Origin: Tamlana crocina
Lineage (GTDB): Bacteria; Bacteroidota; Bacteroidia; Flavobacteriales; Flavobacteriaceae
Assembly (NCBI GenBank): GCA_040429635.1
Contig: CP158972.1
Span: 777,918-841,917 of the forward strand
Direction of reading: 5' to 3'
Length of the DNA stretch: 64,000 nucleotides
This document shows, in pieces, positions 56,272 through 64,000 of the stretch; position 1 is the first letter of the stretch; the number at the start of each line of letters is the position of its first letter. The notes under the pieces were generated by a model that saw only the letters and a program-made list of their open reading frames with translations, made no database searches and was not told the DNA's origin. The position numbers were made by a program, and so were the translations under genes.

Positions 56272-58590
56272 TTATTCTTCCTTCTCCAATTCTTTTAAAG
56301 TGCCATTCCCGGCAATAGACTCTACAATTTCAATGGTTGCAGGTTTTACCGAAGCATTATGAGAATTGTGATACTCTTCCAATAGATTCATAGTGGCAAC
56401 CAATAAGTCTTTAGTTTCAGATAGCAATCCGAAGTACAGCGTAGTGTTTTTTGGGCTCGATTCTTCTTTTCTGGTGCGCTCTACCTGCTTTTGTATTTTT
56501 TCAGACAGAATTTGGAATAATTTGTCTTTAGAACTTAAAATGTCTCCGATTTTATCAAAAGAACGGGAATCGAAAACCGATTTGGTATCGTTGAACAATT
56601 TCTCAACAGATTCATCAACTTCTTTAAGTTCTTTAATTTGGTTGAATTTAAGTTTTTTGTGATTGTTATTTACGTGTTTGAAGCTTACTTTGGAAATGTA
56701 CTCTAAAGATTGAGTCATGTCCTGTAGGTAGCCCAAAATATTGATGTAAAAATCACTGGCGCCCACACTCGATTCATCCAGATTTTTGATGAAATAGAAT
56801 ATGTTGTCTCTTAAACTATCAACTTCAAGCGATAATTTGTCGATTTGTTTTTTATTCTTTTTAAGTGAAGATAAGTCCTGTTTCGCCAATCCCTGTATGG
56901 CGTTCGAGTAAATTTTGTTACCTCGTTTTACCACATTAGCAATGTTGGCAGCACTTTCGTGGATAACACCTTGTACAGAACTGCTTTCGGTATTTTTAAG
57001 TCGGTCTTCACTTTTGCCTTCAACCGATTTTCTTTTATGTGCTAAAAAGTTTCTAACTAACAGCGCTACAGTAAGTAAAAGAAGGATAGGCGTCATTACA
57101 TGAGGTTCCCAGTTGATTAAAAACACCACAATCCCAGAAGCGATAAAAGCCCCAAAGGCAGTACCAAACCAGCCGCCAATAACATTTAACACGCCAGCCA
57201 CTCTATAAACGGCGCTCTCGGCACCCCAAGCCCTATCGGCCAACGATGTACCCATGGCTACCATAAAGGTTACGTAGGTAGTTGAAAGTGGTAATTTCAT
57301 AGCCGTTGCAATAGATATTAATACACCAGCAACCATTAAGTTTACTGAAGCCCTAATCATATCGAATGCAGGAGCATCCATGCTTTGGTCCTTGGTTAAT
57401 GTAGTGTTTGGTTTTTGGAAATTGGTGTCAATCTTTGCTTGCATGGATGCCGGGATGATAAATCTCAATCCATCCGAAATAGACGAGGTCGCTTTAACAA
57501 TACTTCTTGAAAGCATGTTAGGCTTAAATTTTTCGTGTGTATCGCCTTGTCTTGATAAGCTAATTTCAGTTTCTGCAACGGTTTTTGCTTTTTTGGAAAA
57601 CCAAAGTGTCGCCACCATTACGCCTCCAGAAATGAAAAGTAAAAAGGGCTCGGCTGGCATCTTTTTGCCCAAAATGCCCATAGCGAATTCAGAGGCACCT
57701 GTTCCAGAACCTACCCAAGCTTCGTAACTGTGGTATGCGGCCATGGGTACACCAATAAAGTTTACCAAGTCGTTCCCTGAAAAAGCCAATGCCAATCCAA
57801 ACGTACCAACCGCAATAACGATGATTAAAATGCTCTTTTTAGCTATTTTTTGGAAAGCAAACGAGAGCAGGGTAAAGAGAACAAAACTGCCTAAAATGAT
57901 ATACATTTCATTGCCTTCAATCACTCCTTTTAAATTATCATAATAAGGTGTGCCCTTTAAGCCTTTCATAAAGATGAAATACAGTATGGCCGTTAATGCC
58001 ACGCCACCGAAGAAAGCACCAAAGTTTTTGATTTTTTCTTCAAAATGAAAGGTGAAAATAAGTCGCGATACCCACTGAACCAAGGCGCCGATACTAAAAG
58101 CTATAACTACCGATAGTAATATACCACTTATAATTTCTATGGCTTTTTCGGTATTAATGTAATTGCCCAAATCGGCCAGGGTTTCAGAATCCGAAGCCGT
58201 GATTTTTATTGCAGCCATAATCACCGCAGCACCCAATAAATTGAATACGATGGATACTGTGGTTGAGGTGGGCAATCCAATAGTGTTAAAGAAATCGAGC
58301 AAGAGTATGTCTGTAATCATTACAGCCATAAAAATGAGCATGATTTCATGGAAGTTGAACATGGCCGGCACAAAAATACCTTTTCGGGCTACTTCCATAA
58401 GTCCGCTGGAAAAAACGGCTCCAATAAAAATACCCAAACTGGCCACAATCATAATGGTGCGCATGGAAATGGCTTTCGATCCAATGGCAGAATTAAGAAA
58501 GTTAATGGCGTCGTTACTTACTCCAACAACAAGATCAACTACAGCTAAAATAGCGATAGCTATAAGCATGTATAAGTAAATGTGTTCCAT
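56272..58590 (-). CDS. PiT-family inorganic phosphate transporter with C-terminal PhoU/DUF47-like domain
   Basis: I use the ATG at 58590 (MEHIYLYMLIAIAILAVVD) rather than the one eleven codons upstream, since it directly precedes the first helix. The protein of about 772 residues has the PiT signatures GVSNDAINFLNSAIGSKA and AFSGNDLVNFIGVPMA and about ten membrane segments to roughly residue 530. The last 230 residues are helical and resemble the PhoU-like DUF47 domain, which elsewhere is a separate regulator of PiT. It imports phosphate by symport. Phased half-sites lie upstream at 58642-58657, and the O/P porin gene precedes it. Confidence 0.9.
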   Translation of the reverse strand: MEHIYLYMLIAIAILAVVDLVVGVSNDAINFLNSAIGSKAISMRTIMIVASLGIFIGAVFSSGLMEVARKGIFVPAMFNFHEIMLIFMAVMITDILLLDFFNTIGLPTSTTVSIVFNLLGAAVIMAAIKITASDSETLADLGNYINTEKAIEIISGILLSVVIAFSIGALVQWVSRLIFTFHFEEKIKNFGAFFGGVALTAILYFIFMKGLKGTPYYDNLKGVIEGNEMYIILGSFVLFTLLSFAFQKIAKKSILIIVIAVGTFGLALAFSGNDLVNFIGVPMAAYHSYEAWVGSGTGASEFAMGILGKKMPAEPFLLFISGGVMVATLWFSKKAKTVAETEISLSRQGDTHEKFKPNMLSRSIVKATSSISDGLRFIIPASMQAKIDTNFQKPNTTLTKDQSMDAPAFDMIRASVNLMVAGVLISIATAMKLPLSTTYVTFMVAMGTSLADRAWGAESAVYRVAGVLNVIGGWFGTAFGAFIASGIVVFLINWEPHVMTPILLLLTVALLVRNFLAHKRKSVEGKSEDRLKNTESSSVQGVIHESAANIANVVKRGNKIYSNAIQGLAKQDLSSLKKNKKQIDKLSLEVDSLRDNIFYFIKNLDESSVGASDFYINILGYLQDMTQSLEYISKVSFKHVNNNHKKLKFNQIKELKEVDESVEKLFNDTKSVFDSRSFDKIGDILSSKDKLFQILSEKIQKQVERTRKEESSPKNTTLYFGLLSETKDLLVATMNLLEEYHNSHNASVKPATIEIVESIAGNGTLKELEKEE

Positions 58591-58641
58591 AGGTTTCAAT
58601 TGTAAAAGGACTGCAAATATCATGACAATATATGGTTATTA

Positions 58642-58657
58642 TGTTACGTAATTGTTA
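58642..58657 (-). promoter_or_regulatory. Phased TGTTA half-sites upstream of the PiT gene
   Basis: TGTTA occurs at 58642 and 58653 on the plus strand, exactly 11 bp apart (TAACA on the gene strand). A candidate -7 element, GATATTTG followed by CAG, lies 18 nt further toward the gene (58621-58614). The repeat spacing matches PhoB-type boxes. Confidence 0.4.
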
Positions 58658-58667
58658 TTTTAATTGG

Positions 58668-59867
58668 TTAAAAATGGATGTCGAATCCTAACCTGAACAA
58701 AATGTTATCTTTAGTTCTGTTAACGGTTGTATAACTTAAATCGGATTGTACTTTTAGTTTGTGCCCAACTATAAATTTGTTCACGCCAAAAGTGTATTGT
58801 TTGGTTGGCAAAGTATTGGTAACAGACTTGTAATTCAAAGTGGTGAAACGCCCAACAAACTCATAATTGCATTTAAGTAAGTATCCCGCTTGTAAATTCA
58901 GGGCATTACCCACCAAAACGATATCGCCCGTTTCGGAGTTGTCTGCATTTACGGCAACAGGGTTATCGGCTGTACGGTTGGCATATTCGCCCATAAATGA
59001 AAATCTGTTGTACTTAAACATGGCATCGGCAAAAAAGGTGGTGATGTCGGTTTCGTAAAGCGAACCATCATCCCTGAACATGTAATTGCCTAAAACGCTT
59101 CGGGTTTTTACGGCATCCTGATTGAGGTCGTAAGTGAAGCCCAGCATTAGTTTAGGGCTGGCTTCCCGCTTTAAATCAGAACCTGTGTAATCTCCTTTAG
59201 ATTGAAACGTTCCAAAAGGTAAAAGTTCAAGCCGGGCTGTGTATTGCAAACCGCCTTGGTTGCCTTCCGTAATATTGCGTCCTTCCCCTTGCGATACTGC
59301 GATTTTTTCACGCATTAAGAAATTGCCGCCTAATTTTGATTTATGTCGCAATTGTATGCCCATATCGCGGTCTAGGGTAAAACGCCTGTTTAATAATGAT
59401 CGGTTGATTAACTGTAGGTTGCCAGACGAAATTACACGCTCTACGTTGCCGGGAAGTTTGGTTTGTCCGGCCCAAAGTTCGAGGTTTTTGGCAAAGTTCC
59501 ACATAATAACGGCGTCTAAAATATAACGCGGTGCGTTACGGGTAAACTGGTTTGCTCCAGAAATGTCTCTGTTAGAAAGTCCCAACTCCAATTTGTACCT
59601 TAGTTTAGGGCTATAGGCAAAACCATCGAATTTTAATCGGGCACGACGGACTGAAAAATCATATTCGGGGCTACCATAGTTATTGCCGTTATAATTCCAT
59701 TGGGAATTGTAGCGAACCTGAAAACGGGGAGCGAATTTTATACTGAAAGAACTATCTTTTGCAACAAAATTGATTAATCCTTTTCCAAAAGAAGTCTCAC
59801 TGATTTCTTGAGAATGTGCAGCTAGTACTAGGCCAAACGCTAGCGCGATGGCAAATTTAATTTTCAT
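58668..59867 (-). CDS. O/P-type phosphate-selective porin-like outer-membrane protein
   Basis: The chosen start, ATG 59867, gives a signal peptide MKIKFAIALAFGLVLAAHSQ; an upstream ATG nine codons earlier is less likely. The protein of about 399 residues is a beta-barrel of the OprO/OprP family with FAPRFQVRYNSQW and YDFSVRRARLKFDGFAYSPK near the start and ends in the insertion signal FRLGFDIHF. It is followed 77 nt later by the PiT transporter gene, so the pair makes a phosphate path across both membranes. Paired 11-bp half-sites sit 40-57 nt upstream. Confidence 0.9.
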   Translation of the reverse strand: MKIKFAIALAFGLVLAAHSQEISETSFGKGLINFVAKDSSFSIKFAPRFQVRYNSQWNYNGNNYGSPEYDFSVRRARLKFDGFAYSPKLRYKLELGLSNRDISGANQFTRNAPRYILDAVIMWNFAKNLELWAGQTKLPGNVERVISSGNLQLINRSLLNRRFTLDRDMGIQLRHKSKLGGNFLMREKIAVSQGEGRNITEGNQGGLQYTARLELLPFGTFQSKGDYTGSDLKREASPKLMLGFTYDLNQDAVKTRSVLGNYMFRDDGSLYETDITTFFADAMFKYNRFSFMGEYANRTADNPVAVNADNSETGDIVLVGNALNLQAGYLLKCNYEFVGRFTTLNYKSVTNTLPTKQYTFGVNKFIVGHKLKVQSDLSYTTVNRTKDNILFRLGFDIHF

Positions 59868-59907
59868 TGTACGTATTAGTTTTTGTCGCTGCAAAGAACC
59901 AATCCTA

Positions 59908-59923
59908 ATGTTATCTAAATGTT
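59908..59923 (-). promoter_or_regulatory. Phased ATGTT half-sites upstream of the O/P porin
   Basis: ATGTT occurs at 59908 and 59919 on the plus strand, 11 bp apart; on the gene strand they read as two TAACATT blocks with a 4-nt spacer. A TTTGCAG, candidate -7 end, lies just downstream at 59895-59889. It resembles a PhoB box by spacing only. Confidence 0.45.
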
Positions 59924-59953
59924 ACCAAACGATTAACATTAAAACAATAAAAA

Positions 59954-59976
59954 GACTGCCTTGGCCAAAGGCAGTC
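59954..59976 (-). terminator. Terminator-like hairpin upstream of the O/P porin
   Basis: GACTGCC and GGCAGTC, with an inner TTGG/CCAA pairing, form a strong stem. On the minus strand it is followed by TTTTTATTG. It does not follow an annotated minus-strand gene, so it may end an unannotated short transcript or attenuate the porin transcript. Confidence 0.7.
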
Positions 59977-60162
59977 TCATTAGAAATCATGATAATGTAG
60001 TCGACAAAAACTAATAGATTATATGAAATACTAATTAAATTGTCTCAAGACTGTGCAAATATCAAGGTTTAAGTTCATTGTAATGTAACGCAAATATTAA
60101 TTTAATATTAATAATGATGTTTTTTTAAATATTCAATTCATTGAAAAACAAATGATTACAAG

Positions 60163-60206
60163 TTTAATGTTAATTTAATGTTATGTAAATGTTGTTTAAA
60201 TGTTAT
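60163..60206. promoter_or_regulatory. Four 11-bp-phased ATGTT half-sites
   Basis: ATGTT occurs at 60167, 60178, 60189 and 60200, each exactly 11 bp from the next, with T/A-rich flanks of near-constant sequence. The last unit ends 8-10 nt before the -7 element of the MORN gene, the position a PhoB box occupies relative to -10 in E. coli. The orientation could also serve the opposite strand. Confidence 0.55.
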
Positions 60207-60222
60207 CAATTTTGTAACTTTG
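60192..60222 (+). promoter_or_regulatory. Promoter of the MORN gene, TTG-N20-TAACTTTG
   Basis: TTG at 60192-60194 is followed by 20 nt and an exact -7 match TAACTTTG (60215-60222), 29 nt before the start codon. The -33 element lies inside the phased half-site array. Confidence 0.7.
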
Positions 60223-60250
60223 ATTTAATAATGTTAAAAACCCCATAATT

Positions 60251-60607
60251 ATGAAGAAGTTTATTTTATGTTTTGCCTTTTTAATTACTGTGGTTTCTTT
60301 TGCTCAAAAAGAACAAAAGAGAGATTTAAAGTTTAACAAAGACACCAATTTAATTGAAGTAACTTACTATCATGACAATGGAGTGGTGAGCCAAACCGGT
60401 TTTTACACTACAGATGGTAAACTTCAAGGGGAGTGGTTAAGCTTTAGCGCAGAAGGCAAAAAAACAGTTTCTGGTAATTATGATAATGGTAAAAAAGTCG
60501 GCAAGTGGTTTTATTACACTAATGAAACCGTAAAAGAAGTAGATTACAATGAAAATGTAATCGCTAGTTTGAAGGAAACAGACGTTAAGGACGATAAAGG
60601 CCTATAA
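60251..60607 (+). CDS. Small secreted MORN-repeat protein
   Basis: This 118-residue protein has a signal peptide (MKKFILCFAFLITVVSFAQ). The mature 99 residues contain about three MORN_2-type units: TYYHDNGVVSQTGFYTTDGK, GEWLSFSAEGKKTVSGNYDN and GKWFYYTNETVKEVDYNENV. Such proteins are sometimes called YwqK-family 'antitoxins' or mislabelled as nucleotide adenylyltransferases, but there is no evidence for either here. It is preceded by the four-unit phased array and a consensus promoter, so strong, regulated expression is likely. Its role in the phosphate block is unknown. Confidence 0.85.
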   Translation: MKKFILCFAFLITVVSFAQKEQKRDLKFNKDTNLIEVTYYHDNGVVSQTGFYTTDGKLQGEWLSFSAEGKKTVSGNYDNGKKVGKWFYYTNETVKEVDYNENVIASLKETDVKDDKGL

Positions 60608-60630
60608 AAACTAAGCAAACTACAAATAGA

Positions 60631-60656
60631 AAAAGCATCCCATTTGGGATGCTTTT
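60631..60656. terminator. Bidirectional terminator between the MORN and beta-helix lipoprotein genes
   Basis: AAAAGCATCCC and GGGATGCTTTT form an 11-bp stem around ATTT with a T-tract on both strands. The two genes converge on it. Confidence 0.9.
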
Positions 60657-60690
60657 TTTATTTCATCTTAACCTTGAAAAGTGTTGGTTA

Positions 60691-61890
60691 CTAGTTAAGC
60701 ATGGTAACTACAAAACTTTGTCCGGCCCAAGTAAAGGCTGATACGTCTGCACCAACGCCAGCTTTAAAACTTATGGTGTTGTTGGCGGTAATTGTAATAC
60801 CATCAGTGATTGATGTTACTGATCCTGTAATGTCTCCTCCTACATTATCGTCACCAACGTTTCCTTGAGCAACAGCATTAGTAATTGTTAAAGTACCGTT
60901 GCCTTTGTCGTCTTTTGTGTCTATCCTGTTTCCAAAAGAAGCATTGCCGTATGCCGCGAACAATATGTTACTGATTACGGCTTGTGTGCCACGTCTAATT
61001 TCAGCACCACCTTTTAAAGGTATATCTGGGTTAAGGTTTAAAATGGTAACATTTTTTAAGGTAGGTGTTGATATAGGGGCAGCAGTAGGGTCAGAACTGT
61101 TGCTGTCTCCTTCAATACCTCGTGGGTCATCAGTGGCAGCATCAAAGCCATCGTTACGAACACCAAAAGCGTTTGTAATTGTACCAGTATAACCTTCTGT
61201 CCAGTCGAACATATCGTCTGCAATGTTAGCACAGTAAACATTGGTTACATTTACGCTGCCTCCAAAAAATTCAATGCCATCGTCATTTCCGTCGCTTACA
61301 ACAATGTTATTTACAATAGTGCCATTTCCAACACCAAAGAAAGATATACCATTAAACTCTTGTTCGCCATTAATTTTAGCGCCAGTATATTGAGCGATTA
61401 CGTAGCTTAGCTCGCCAGAGCTGTCTGTGTCTTCATTGCCACCATAAAGTAATCCGGCAACCTCAGATTGAACGTCAGTTCCTTTATTACTTTTTGCTTT
61501 ACCAGCTAGCACAATACCACCCCAATCTCCTGCTTTTGGAGATGCAGCATCAGAGGTGAATCTAATAGGGTTGGCTGCTGTACCTTTGGCAATTAATTTC
61601 GCTCCTCTTTCAACAGCTAAAAACACATCGGTTCTTCCGCTTTTTGCCTTAATTACTGTACCAGGCTCTATGGTTAAGGTAGCTCCTTCTTTTACAGTTA
61701 AAGAACTGGTTAAGTTGTATTCTACAGAAGCTAATAATGTGGCATCTTCAGTAATCTCTCCTTTTAATTCATTTCCAGTAATCGGGCCACCGCCGTTTCC
61801 TGGGTCAATAGTTCTGTTGTCATCATCACTTGAGCAAGAAAAAATAGAGATAGCAACGGCTACTATTAATAAGTTTTTTAATGTTTTCAT
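60691..61890 (-). CDS. Secreted beta-helix-like lipoprotein downstream of the TonB receptor
   Basis: This 399-residue lipoprotein has a lipobox ISIFSC (Cys19), a Ser/Asp-rich linker, then a beta-helix-like body: VKEGATLTIEPGTVIKAKSG, GAKLIAKGTAANPIRFTSDA, a Gly-rich KAGDWGGIVLAGKA segment and VSDGNDDGIEFFGGSVNVTN. It is rich in Asn and Asp with no obvious catalytic residues. In Bacteroidota this family is commonly paired with a TonB-dependent receptor, as here (174 nt separate the genes). Phased half-sites at 62000-62015 suggest common control with phosphate genes; binding of a phosphorus compound is only a guess. Confidence 0.75.
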   Translation of the reverse strand: MKTLKNLLIVAVAISIFSCSSDDDNRTIDPGNGGGPITGNELKGEITEDATLLASVEYNLTSSLTVKEGATLTIEPGTVIKAKSGRTDVFLAVERGAKLIAKGTAANPIRFTSDAASPKAGDWGGIVLAGKAKSNKGTDVQSEVAGLLYGGNEDTDSSGELSYVIAQYTGAKINGEQEFNGISFFGVGNGTIVNNIVVSDGNDDGIEFFGGSVNVTNVYCANIADDMFDWTEGYTGTITNAFGVRNDGFDAATDDPRGIEGDSNSSDPTAAPISTPTLKNVTILNLNPDIPLKGGAEIRRGTQAVISNILFAAYGNASFGNRIDTKDDKGNGTLTITNAVAQGNVGDDNVGGDITGSVTSITDGITITANNTISFKAGVGADVSAFTWAGQSFVVTMLN

Positions 61891-61999
61891 TTTGTTTTTT
61901 TTAATTTTAAATTCTTGTTTTTATTGTTCTGCAAAAAAAGAAATTAGATTTAAACTTAGTTTGAAGCCAATATTAGTATTAGGTTAAGAAAATTTACTT

Positions 62000-62015
62000 A
62001 TGTTAACTTAATGTT
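62000..62015 (-). promoter_or_regulatory. Phased ATGTT half-sites upstream of the beta-helix lipoprotein
   Basis: ATGTT occurs at 62000 and 62011, 11 bp apart; on the gene strand these are AACAT blocks. They lie about 110-125 nt before the start codon, further than at the other sites. A TTTGCAG at 61935-61929 is the nearest -7 candidate. Confidence 0.35.
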
Positions 62016-62064
62016 TATAGTCTTGTGGGTTTCTTTTTGTTGACTGTCAATATTGTGTTCTTTG

Positions 62065-64000
62065 TTACAAATCATAAGAGATGCCAACTGAAAAGGAGGT
62101 GCCTCTTTTGTAGGTATTCATTGTTAGTTTTTCCGGGATATCCCTGTATCTGTCAAAGCTAGGGTTCAATATGTTTTTTACATTAAATTTTGCTCCTAAA
62201 TTCTTGTTGAATTTGTGGCTAAATACAAAGTCTAAAAGCGGAACTCCTTTTTCAATAATGTTTTCCTTAAAGTTTGTGCCAATACTGTACACTTTGTCGC
62301 TTTGGTAGTTGAATACTAAAGTTGAAACGGTTTCTTTATCGTTTAACTCAAATCTGTATGAAACATCTGCGTTAACAGTAAAGGGAGCAGCGCCTTCTAA
62401 TTGAGAGCTATCTCCGGTGTAGTTGAACAAGGTGTTGGCTGTGTTAAACTCCAGTTTGGTGCTCATCAAAGTAGCGTTACCTCCAAGGGAAAGGGTTTGG
62501 GATTTTTCACTATCTGTATCTTCGATAGAGATAATATCCAGTTTGCCTTCTAATTCCAATCCAAAAACAGTAGCGTCACCAGAATTGTCAAAGGTGAAGT
62601 CTCTTTCGATTGCAGAGTTTCTTTCTAATCGGTTAATGGAGTTTTGAATTAATTTCCCGAAAACACCTATGGAAAAAAGCTCACTCTTGTTTGGGAACAA
62701 CTCGAATTTAAGTTCGCCGTTATAGTTGTCTGACGGCATCAAAGCTGGGTTACCACTTTCTTGATAGTTGATGCCTTCGTAAGTAAATGGGGCAATTTCC
62801 TTAAACTGAGGGTAAGTGTACGTTACGCTACCAGAGGCTCTTAAGTTGATTTTGTCGTTAAGCTGATATTTCAGGTTAAGAGTAGGTAAAACGTATTGTT
62901 TGTCCAAAGTAATCTGGCTGTTGTTTGTGAACCCAGGGAAACTAATGTTGGTGTCCCATTCTACGTCCATTTTTACATCTTCTGCACGTACGCCAAAATT
63001 GGCAGTAAGCTTTTCGTTGAATTTATAAACCGCATCAATATAAACGGCATGTGTAGTTTTTTTGGCATCGTATAATTGCGGAAGATAAGTTTCGGCATCG
63101 TCGCTGTTCCTACCTCTTGATGTCTCTATGCCAAATACACCATTGTCCAAATTGGTTTGGTTGAATGTGGCGTCTAAGTTTTCTACATCTACAAACGTAT
63201 TCCTTGGGTTAGAGAAGTTATGGTCAAAGTAAATACCGTCAAATTTTCTATCGGTAATATTCCCATTATATCCCAATGTAATTTTGCCTTTATTTTCAAA
63301 ACGGTCGCCAAGGTATTTCACAATATTTAAGTTTCCTGCGATACTATTTTCAAATAAGTTGCCGTAAAACCTACTGTTGTCCCTAACCGCATTTTGGGAA
63401 ATTCTGGTTCTGTTGGTGTCGTTATTTATAATTAAAGTGTTTTTTCTTCTATCCGGTTCGTCATTATAAATGGCATTATAACTTACTGAGGCGTTGGCGT
63501 CAAAAGACTCTCCTAGTTTGTGTTCTGATAATAACTGGTTAACGAAAAGCTTATTTTGAACTTCAGTTTGCAATATTACGTTCACTAATCTATTGTCTTC
63601 AGCATCTCTACCAATGTCATTTGTTGTTCCAACAAAATCTTCAATTTTTTGGGTGTTGGAGTGTACAAATAAATGGTTGTAGCTCAGTTTGTGGCTGTTA
63701 TTGATTTTGTAAACCAAATTGCCCATTAACATCTTGGAGGCATTGTAATCATAAGTTTTTGTATCAAAAATAGACCCCACATTTAATGAGCCATCTTCAT
63801 TAATATCAACTATGGCATCAGATTGCCCTTCACGATAAGCATATTTATTATCAAAAGACCCCACAAGGAATATGCTAATGTTGCTTTCGTCAGATAATGT
63901 TATTTTTTTTCCGTAGTTCAATGAAACGCCCAATGTTGGATTGGCTTTGCCTGAATTAGGGGAATAGCTGTTGTCAAAATTGTAATTAGACAAACTTCGT
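62065..64000 (-). CDS. TonB-dependent receptor, partial (C-terminal part)
   Basis: About 644 residues of barrel sequence are present and the reading frame continues to the right edge without a start codon; the MSNYNF that a gene finder may offer is an internal TTG, not a start. The visible part contains repeated barrel strands (VYIDAVYKFNEKLTANFGVR, INLRASGSVTYTYPQFKEIA, ELKFELFPNKSELFSIGVFG) and ends in the outer-membrane signal FSVGISYDL. It resembles receptors with an N-terminal carboxypeptidase-regulatory domain, which would be encoded outside the window. It is upstream of the beta-helix lipoprotein gene, probably in one unit. The ligand is unknown. Confidence 0.9.
   Translation of the reverse strand, partial: RSLSNYNFDNSYSPNSGKANPTLGVSLNYGKKITLSDESNISIFLVGSFDNKYAYREGQSDAIVDINEDGSLNVGSIFDTKTYDYNASKMLMGNLVYKINNSHKLSYNHLFVHSNTQKIEDFVGTTNDIGRDAEDNRLVNVILQTEVQNKLFVNQLLSEHKLGESFDANASVSYNAIYNDEPDRRKNTLIINNDTNRTRISQNAVRDNSRFYGNLFENSIAGNLNIVKYLGDRFENKGKITLGYNGNITDRKFDGIYFDHNFSNPRNTFVDVENLDATFNQTNLDNGVFGIETSRGRNSDDAETYLPQLYDAKKTTHAVYIDAVYKFNEKLTANFGVRAEDVKMDVEWDTNISFPGFTNNSQITLDKQYVLPTLNLKYQLNDKINLRASGSVTYTYPQFKEIAPFTYEGINYQESGNPALMPSDNYNGELKFELFPNKSELFSIGVFGKLIQNSINRLERNSAIERDFTFDNSGDATVFGLELEGKLDIISIEDTDSEKSQTLSLGGNATLMSTKLEFNTANTLFNYTGDSSQLEGAAPFTVNADVSYRFELNDKETVSTLVFNYQSDKVYSIGTNFKENIIEKGVPLLDFVFSHKFNKNLGAKFNVKNILNPSFDRYRDIPEKLTMNTYKRGTSFSVGISYDL

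Follow-up and report, generated by a model that had tools for sequence, protein, structure and literature searches.

Conserved 11-bp direct repeats of putative PhoB type before phosphate-uptake genes of Flavobacteriaceae, and a candidate small RNA complementary to a porin leader

The PHO boxes of Escherichia coli (CTGTCAT) and Streptomyces coelicolor (GTTCACC) are 11-nt direct repeats upstream of phosphate genes, and the regulators concerned often act on their own operon, too (PMC4415409). Here we describe a gene block of a Tamlana genome (labelled G000, contig C1), analysed in a window of 64,000 nt, in which repeats of this period stand before the genes for a PiT-type phosphate transporter, a phosphate-type porin and a small MORN-repeat-like protein, and in which a degenerate array precedes a candidate small RNA (sRNA) gene. 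The block shares with the PhoB/PhoP systems the 11-nt direct repeats before phosphate-uptake genes and a box at the regulator's own operon, but differs from those of E. coli and S. coelicolor in its half-site (TTAACAT), in its promoters with a Bacteroidota -7 element (consensus TAnnTTTG) and in the occurrence of boxes in both orientations relative to the genes. Furthermore, unlike the classical PHO systems, this genome contains no match to the PhoU domain and none to the PstS family TIGR02136, so that it may depend on PiT and other importers for the uptake of phosphate. The candidate sRNA recalls MicF, OmrA and RyhB, which are trans-acting, base-pairing sRNAs of outer-membrane proteins. It would share with them the small size, the intergenic position, a terminator, a conserved seed and pairing beside the start codon. 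It differs in having no Rfam match, in its predicted targets, the phosphate porin and in one relative a sodium/phosphate (Na/Pi) cotransporter, and in the position of its gene, which adjoins that of the main target and is preceded by an 11-bp array.

A half-site and period very close to these are known from another phylum, where the PhoP box of Bacillus subtilis consists of TTAACA repeats; confirmation of this in the literature was not found. Closer to our strain, Riemerella anatipestifer belongs to the same order of bacteria as Tamlana. In the motif determined for its PhoP by DNA affinity purification sequencing (DAP-seq) the most conserved letters are TTTAACA, i.e. the same half-site, and binding of this PhoP was also seen upstream of the operon that encodes it (PMC9603813); the two regulators are compared here as possible counterparts. 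The terms 'direct repeat', 'porin' and 'inorganic phosphate transporter' do not occur in the main text of that article (PMC9603813). The arrangement TGTTAN-N5-TGTTAN seen here also fits the WalR/YycF consensus TGTWAH-N5-TGTWAH (W, A/T; H, A/T/C) (PMC5405149). WalR/YycF regulates in Gram-positive bacteria, and the regulator considered here is not a WalR by score (191.5 bits at a cut-off of 340). The half-site, for which the original prediction had inferred a Bacteroidota-specific Pho box, is thus not peculiar to the block described here. Because the Riemerella motif has the same half-site, the box motif itself is not new; added here are the 11-bp arrays, their promoter geometry and their phosphate targets.

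The best reading of the repeats is that of PhoB-type 11-bp direct-repeat sites. A PhoB-like regulator would bind arrays of TTAACAT/ATGTTAA units recurring every 11 bp just upstream of Bacteroidota -7 elements. Through these arrays PiT, the OprP-type porin, MORN and the gene of the regulator would be switched, PiT, porin and MORN in the sense of activation; shortage of phosphate is the most likely signal. The sRNA gene (60051-59949, minus strand) would be transcribed from its own degenerate array and -7-like element. Its predicted hairpin loop shows UUUGUC, which may pair with the leader of the porin messenger RNA (mRNA); this pairing, 6 nt before the ATG, most likely masks the ribosome-binding stretch and limits porin synthesis. 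The sRNA would then be a feed-forward or braking arm, in one relative also on the Na/Pi cotransporter. Judged from the sequences, we hold it to be likely that PhoB-type arrays at PiT, porin, MORN and regulator together with pairing of the sRNA with the porin leader make up one explanation. Repression as the sign of the sRNA effect is a guess, to which we incline. The elements are, in window positions:

56272-58590, minus strand: PiT-type phosphate transporter (PHO4; Pfam PF01384, E 1.5e-28)
58614-58621, minus strand: PiT -7-like element GATATTTG, read from the sequence
58642-58657, minus strand: two TAACA units before PiT, 11 bp apart
58668-59867, minus strand: Porin_O_P phosphate-type porin, ATG at 59867 (Pfam PF07396, E 2.7e-11)
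59874-59888, minus strand: porin mRNA leader CGACAAAAACTAATA, predicted sRNA target
59892-59899, minus strand: porin -7-like element GTTCTTTG, two letters off TAnnTTTG
59908-59924, minus strand: two TAACAT units before the porin
59949-60051, minus strand: candidate sRNA gene, about 103 nt, ends inferred
59952-59978, minus strand: intrinsic terminator hairpin of the sRNA
60002-60016, minus strand: sRNA segment TATTAGTTTTTGTCG, exact complement of the porin leader
60056-60063, minus strand: sRNA -7-like element GATATTTG, letters identical to those of PiT
60084-60110, minus strand: degenerate three-unit 11-bp array before the sRNA (TAATA, TAATA, TTACA in sRNA sense)
60167-60205, plus strand: four-unit ATGTT array before MORN
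60215-60222, plus strand: MORN -7 element TAACTTTG
60251-60607, plus strand: small secreted MORN-repeat-like protein (PF07661, 20.4 bits, under the cut-off of 29.6)
60691-61890, minus strand: lipoprotein ('beta-helix' being an earlier label)
62000-62015, minus strand: AACAT pair before the lipoprotein

Of the gene identities proposed before, PiT and O/P porin are borne out by Pfam; the match of the MORN protein (MORN_2) remains under its cut-off.

All half-sites of the original prediction lie where they had been placed, at a spacing of exactly 11 bp: ATGTT at 60167, 60178, 60189 and 60200, at 59908/59919 and at 62000/62011, and TGTTA at 58642/58653. The -7 element announced behind the four-unit array begins 10 nt past the last ATGTT. 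The pairs had been read on the plus strand, yet PiT, porin and lipoprotein are encoded on the minus strand, so that in gene sense their unit is TAACA(T); TGTTA in gene sense applies to MORN in this block and to the regulator gene elsewhere. ATGTT-11-ATGTT occurs 6 times in the window against 0.55 expected (none of 100 shuffles attained 6), 5 times within the region first noted, and TGTTA-11-TGTTA 3 times against 0.36. In the whole genome 28 TGTTA-11-TGTTA pairs face 14 of the reversed-pattern control. The expected excess at 11 bp is therefore present, but it is about two-fold. TGTTA pairs at spacings 6-25 sum up to 317, so that a spacing other than 11 has about 15 on average (Poisson P about 0.002), and among 100 forward-strand matches listed, 11 had the spacing 11, followed by 9 each at 12 and 22. 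According to simple open reading frame (ORF) calls, 7 of the 28 genomic pairs lie inside an ORF and 21 outside, one of the latter overlapping an assumed ORF start. The genome-wide excess is modest though real; the strong part is the conservation.

We followed this conservation in 80 named relatives gathered via the MORN protein, with record titles mostly from Flavobacteriaceae genera such as Aestuariibaculum, Mariniflexile, Tamlana and Winogradskyella. PiT was matched in 74 and the porin in 73 of these loci, and dinucleotide shuffles of the upstream regions served as chance baseline. Before PiT, an exact TAACA-11 pair was found in 61 of 74 loci (shuffle mean 0.42) and a relaxed TAAC-11 pair in 73. 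The AACAT-11 pair precedes the porin in 63 of 73 loci (shuffle mean 0.11), and before MORN 11-bp pairs of TGTTA occur in 57 of 80 loci (shuffle mean 0.36) and of ATGTT in 64. This applies also for the gene of the PhoB-like regulator, sampled from the best 30 of 192 genomes with a match, where 24 of 30 loci carry the TGTTA-11 pair (shuffle mean 0.14). The same units at other spacings from 6 to 22 were seen in at most 5 loci, with the exception of the double period of 22 before MORN. The complete four-unit MORN array, with at most 4 mismatches in 20 and at most 2 per unit, is present at 11 bp in 74 of 80 loci and at spacings 8-14 in at most 2; allowing 3 mismatches per unit, it is found in 80 of 80, compared to at most 8 at other spacings. 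The half-site letters are better conserved than most spacer positions, and before control genes in the same loci none of the four unit types is paired at 11 (OmpA 0/28, cupin 0/19). The varying distances to the -7 elements, which had been counted as a weakness, proved near-fixed within each gene: from the first unit to the -7 element there are 47 nt before MORN in 48 of 57 loci, 36 nt before PiT in 59 of 61 and 25 nt before the porin in 51 of 63, and the variation comes down to these three classes. At the regulator gene the distance from unit to -7 element varies, the commonest value occurring in 11 of 24 loci. Array and promoter geometry are hence conserved features of the block, and binding by the regulator and a response to phosphate are predicted from them.

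The regulator itself comprises 226 amino acids (G000:C1:3684385-3685062, minus strand) and adjoins a PhoR-like kinase. Among the four OmpR-type regulators of the genome it alone has PhoB models as the best-scoring ones; the best models of the other three are KdpE, CtrA and RprY. At E 1e-60 a match was found in 192 of 199 family genomes. Of the 7 genomes without such a match, 1 had the exact PiT box and 2 the relaxed one, none of them among the 3 with a completeness of 90% or more; for the two relaxed positives the completeness is 82% and 73%. Compared to the 61 of 74 loci with the exact box, 1 of 7 gives a P of 0.0005. Since the 7 genomes are more divergent and the 74 PiT loci were unchecked for the regulator, this joint loss is suggestive only.

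Sites of the same kind were also found at other phosphate genes. PstS (TIGR02136) was matched in 12 of 149 family genomes, and in 7 of the 12 pst loci the ORF before pstS begins like the window porin (by eye; Pfam checked in one). A scan for exact 11-bp pairs over all 14 PstS matches gave 5 positives. In the 9 porin-pst loci that entered the box count (L155-L163) a box stands before the first gene in 5, and L160 has, further to these, an exact pair before pstS. In the phylum-wide pstS sample (best 29 of 191 genomes with a match) exact pairs were present in 4 of 29, namely 1 of 1 in family f12 and 3 of 3 in family f23. For the plcP-like metallophosphatase (PF12850) starts could be placed in 26 of 30 loci, the remaining 4 being left out; TAAC-11 pairs occur in 13 of 26, exact TAACA pairs in 7 and pairs at other spacings in at most 2, and our strain has an array about 100 bp upstream of its own gene (G000:C1:2478089, L014). 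Expression of plcP is induced under phosphate starvation in the isolates tested, one of them a flavobacterium, and putative Pho boxes at plcP clusters have been reported (PMC4796936). In Flavobacterium johnsoniae, phosphate depletion induced phoB, a TonB receptor, lipoproteins and PlcP (PMC8115612). In Bacteroides fragilis the pstC promoter is a binding site of PhoB, and the pattern listed for the pst genes is also that of a PiT-like permease (PMC3547664).

Several results weigh against PhoB-type sites or limit their range. Before the lipoprotein the AACAT-11 pair exists in 4 of 70 loci (L046, L048, L049, L074), all of which have close orthologues of 82-86% identity, and it is absent from the orthologue of L052 (85%). 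No exact 11-bp pair precedes the PhoX-family genes in 30 loci, 6 of which have a one-mismatch pair and 4 less than 50 nt upstream. The exact box before pstS is missing in families f17 (0/20) and f13 (0/5). Some pairs of our own genome stand before genes without evident phosphate role, and in 110 family genomes the exact three-unit TGTTA array was counted at 20 places compared to 10 for the reversed control, 5 of these in one genome. The regulator stays under both PhoB equivalog cut-offs (222.6 bits at 296.2, and 209.2 bits at 270). Finally, the OprP gene of F. johnsoniae, located beside phoBR, was uninduced (log2 -1.3, P 0.25), as was phoR (PMC8115612); this OprP is compared here as a possible counterpart of the window porin. 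Because of this uninduced OprP we grade the PhoB-type reading as partly supported and not as supported. As regards the genes for which the box had been proposed, the 11-bp spacing is conserved before PiT, porin and MORN, and beyond these before regulator, porin-pst and plcP-like genes, but not before the lipoprotein or PhoX.

Alternatively it might be that the regulator is a broader envelope or redox regulator of the WalR, ArcA or PhoP kind, for which phosphate genes are only part of the targets. The fit of the units to the WalR/YycF consensus would agree with this, as would the 583 DAP-seq peaks of Riemerella PhoP, with their ArcA-like motif, mostly membrane proteins as direct targets and a role in aerotolerance (PMC9603813). 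The wide distribution of the regulator in the family, the uninduced OprP and pairs of our own genome before TonB-receptor-like, cytochrome-like and other genes (informal labels) point in the same direction. However, PhoB models beat YycF on this protein (222.6 vs 191.5 bits), ArcA is absent among the best 25 models listed, and most of the conserved targets belong to phosphate uptake or are plcP-like, these being, however, the genes that were examined. We consider such a broad regulator as a possible but rather doubtful explanation and prefer PhoB-type control.

Examination of the degenerate array TGTAA, TATTA, TATTA at 60084, 60095 and 60106 revealed a second, leftward unit on the minus strand. 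It consists of a -7-like element (a promoter by consensus only), followed by a hairpin at the 5' end, a core with hardly any variation and a terminator. TGTAA-11-YATTA-11-YATTA is present in 64 of 80 loci and the YATTA pair in 78, and the 17-nt core of the sRNA is free of mismatches in 69 of 74 porin-bearing sequences, the other 5 having one each. A covariance model (R1) was made from an alignment of the window with 42 of the 80 named loci (43 sequences) and scores 129.5 bits on the window. It detects one copy in 79 of 80 named loci (E at most 0.01, at least 63 bits), i.e. in all but L074; 37 of the 79 lie outside the alignment. Compensatory changes among the 43 aligned sequences affect 5 of the 24 pairs predicted; they lie in the terminator and the 5' hairpin. 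The window RNA folds with -25.9 kcal/mol (z -3.95; 1 of 200 shuffles as good), and the terminator search found 1 compared to 0.2 expected in shuffles. Over 67 sources the rows for R1 numbered 25, some of them weak; without exception they came from porin, pst-porin or PiT/MORN loci, whereas 76 regulator, plcP, phylum pstS and PhoX loci yielded 0 matches. No second copy was detected in the own DNA scanned with R1 (window and 28 pieces). Rfam gave 4 matches over 58500-62200 at E up to 1, none covering the sRNA, and at the gathering threshold no match to the sRNA in 4 loci. A coding gene was considered at this position and rejected, no conserved reading frame being visible by eye. The structure is thus well kept, and expression of the RNA is predicted from it; on the other side, its own 11-bp array is degenerate and R1 is weak on L301, L304 and L306 (E 0.02 to 0.1).

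Fifteen nucleotides of the sRNA (60016-60002) match a stretch of the porin leader (59888-59874) exactly as its reverse complement, and the ATG follows this stretch after 6 nt; the target string is CGACAAAAACTA. Among 49 window ORFs the porin forms the best duplex (-27.0 vs -19.1). Pairing was counted over 81 loci, L302 (no sRNA) and L308 (porin gone) having been excluded beforehand: all 15 positions pair in 40 loci, 14 in 22 (at least 14 in 62) and 10 to 13 in 19. Nine of the latter are length variants in which the leader has an additional A and the duplex is bulged, a point against the pairing; these were set aside in the scoring of substitutions, which covers 72 loci. At leader positions 1-11, 23 substitutions keep the pairing, all but one by wobble, and 3 break it; at positions 12-15, 6 keep and 35 break it. 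These counts are to be taken with reserve, being loci and not independent events, and transitions are common anyway. Individual loci show how leader and sRNA go together. In L306 the sRNA is altered to match a leader with the reading ..CAAAGA, in L302, where no sRNA was found, the leader has diverged, and L055 and L056, in which a different Porin_O_P member takes the porin's place, retain the sRNA as well as the leader. Complementarity is therefore kept over most of the loci.

A second target is predicted in L068, where the leader of a Na/Pi cotransporter (PF02690, E 5.8e-60) contains a 17-nt target ending 9 nt before the start. With -37.6 kcal/mol this duplex is the best of 8 ORF starts there. 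By base composition 0.0008 matches of this type are expected in all DNA examined, in a search that was post hoc, and L068 is a single case. The list of target sites had been filtered, porin-like ORFs and sRNA copies being removed. A 16-nt match in L165 (2424-2409, minus strand) precedes a pstS-like start by about 80 nt, with a hairpin in between, and was not counted as target. Going by sequence comparison, we probably have here a Flavobacteriaceae sRNA family outside Rfam that is driven by a PhoB-type array and uses its hairpin loop for pairing with the leaders of OprP-type porin and Na/Pi cotransporter, both phosphate importers, which would constitute a post-transcriptional arm of phosphate uptake.

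The two complementary segments are about 113 nt apart on the same strand and might form an inverted repeat acting in cis, with a read-through RNA folding on itself to control porin transcription or translation and no free sRNA being made. We regard this as unlikely. Between the two segments there are a conserved terminator and, for the porin itself, an array and a -7-like element; the separate Na/Pi cotransporter gene of L068 with the same target fits action in trans; and L087 and L112 retain the sRNA with neither a porin match nor a target in the 12 kb examined. An origin of the 11-bp repeats by chance in AT-rich spacers, with which the two-fold genome-wide excess would be compatible, is highly improbable and already refuted for the MORN, porin, PiT and regulator sites by the conservation of one spacing in dozens of loci (shuffle means below 0.5; four-unit array in 74 of 80 loci vs at most 2), and it is possible for isolated pairs elsewhere.

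With PhoB-type arrays and a pairing sRNA, a testable definition of the Pho box becomes available for Flavobacteriaceae, tied to named genes, in a family in which most genomes have no PstS match. Likewise, a conserved sRNA with a named target makes a combined control of phosphate uptake at transcriptional and RNA level testable.

Some further observations concern single sites and neighbouring genes. The two exact three-unit TGTTA arrays of our genome (C1:394727-394765 and 395437-395463, L039) are alike by eye beyond the units; a 199-amino-acid secreted protein, an AraC-type regulator and an apparent transposase fragment are encoded nearby (informal labels). A pair at G000:C1:479326 (L006) precedes a cytochrome-c-like gene (informal label) and recalls the cytochrome targets of Riemerella PhoP. 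The lipoprotein of the block matched no Pfam family at E 0.001 and no NCBIfam family. The Pfam scan of the window also gave a TonB-dependent receptor, beyond which a TAACA-11 pair stands before a gene of 138 amino acids in 26 of 63 loci; a dGTPase-like gene adjoins (G000:C1:843624, L040; informal labels). The MORN leader (60224-60253, TAATGTTAAAAACCCCATAATTATG in our strain) looks conserved by eye in many relatives.

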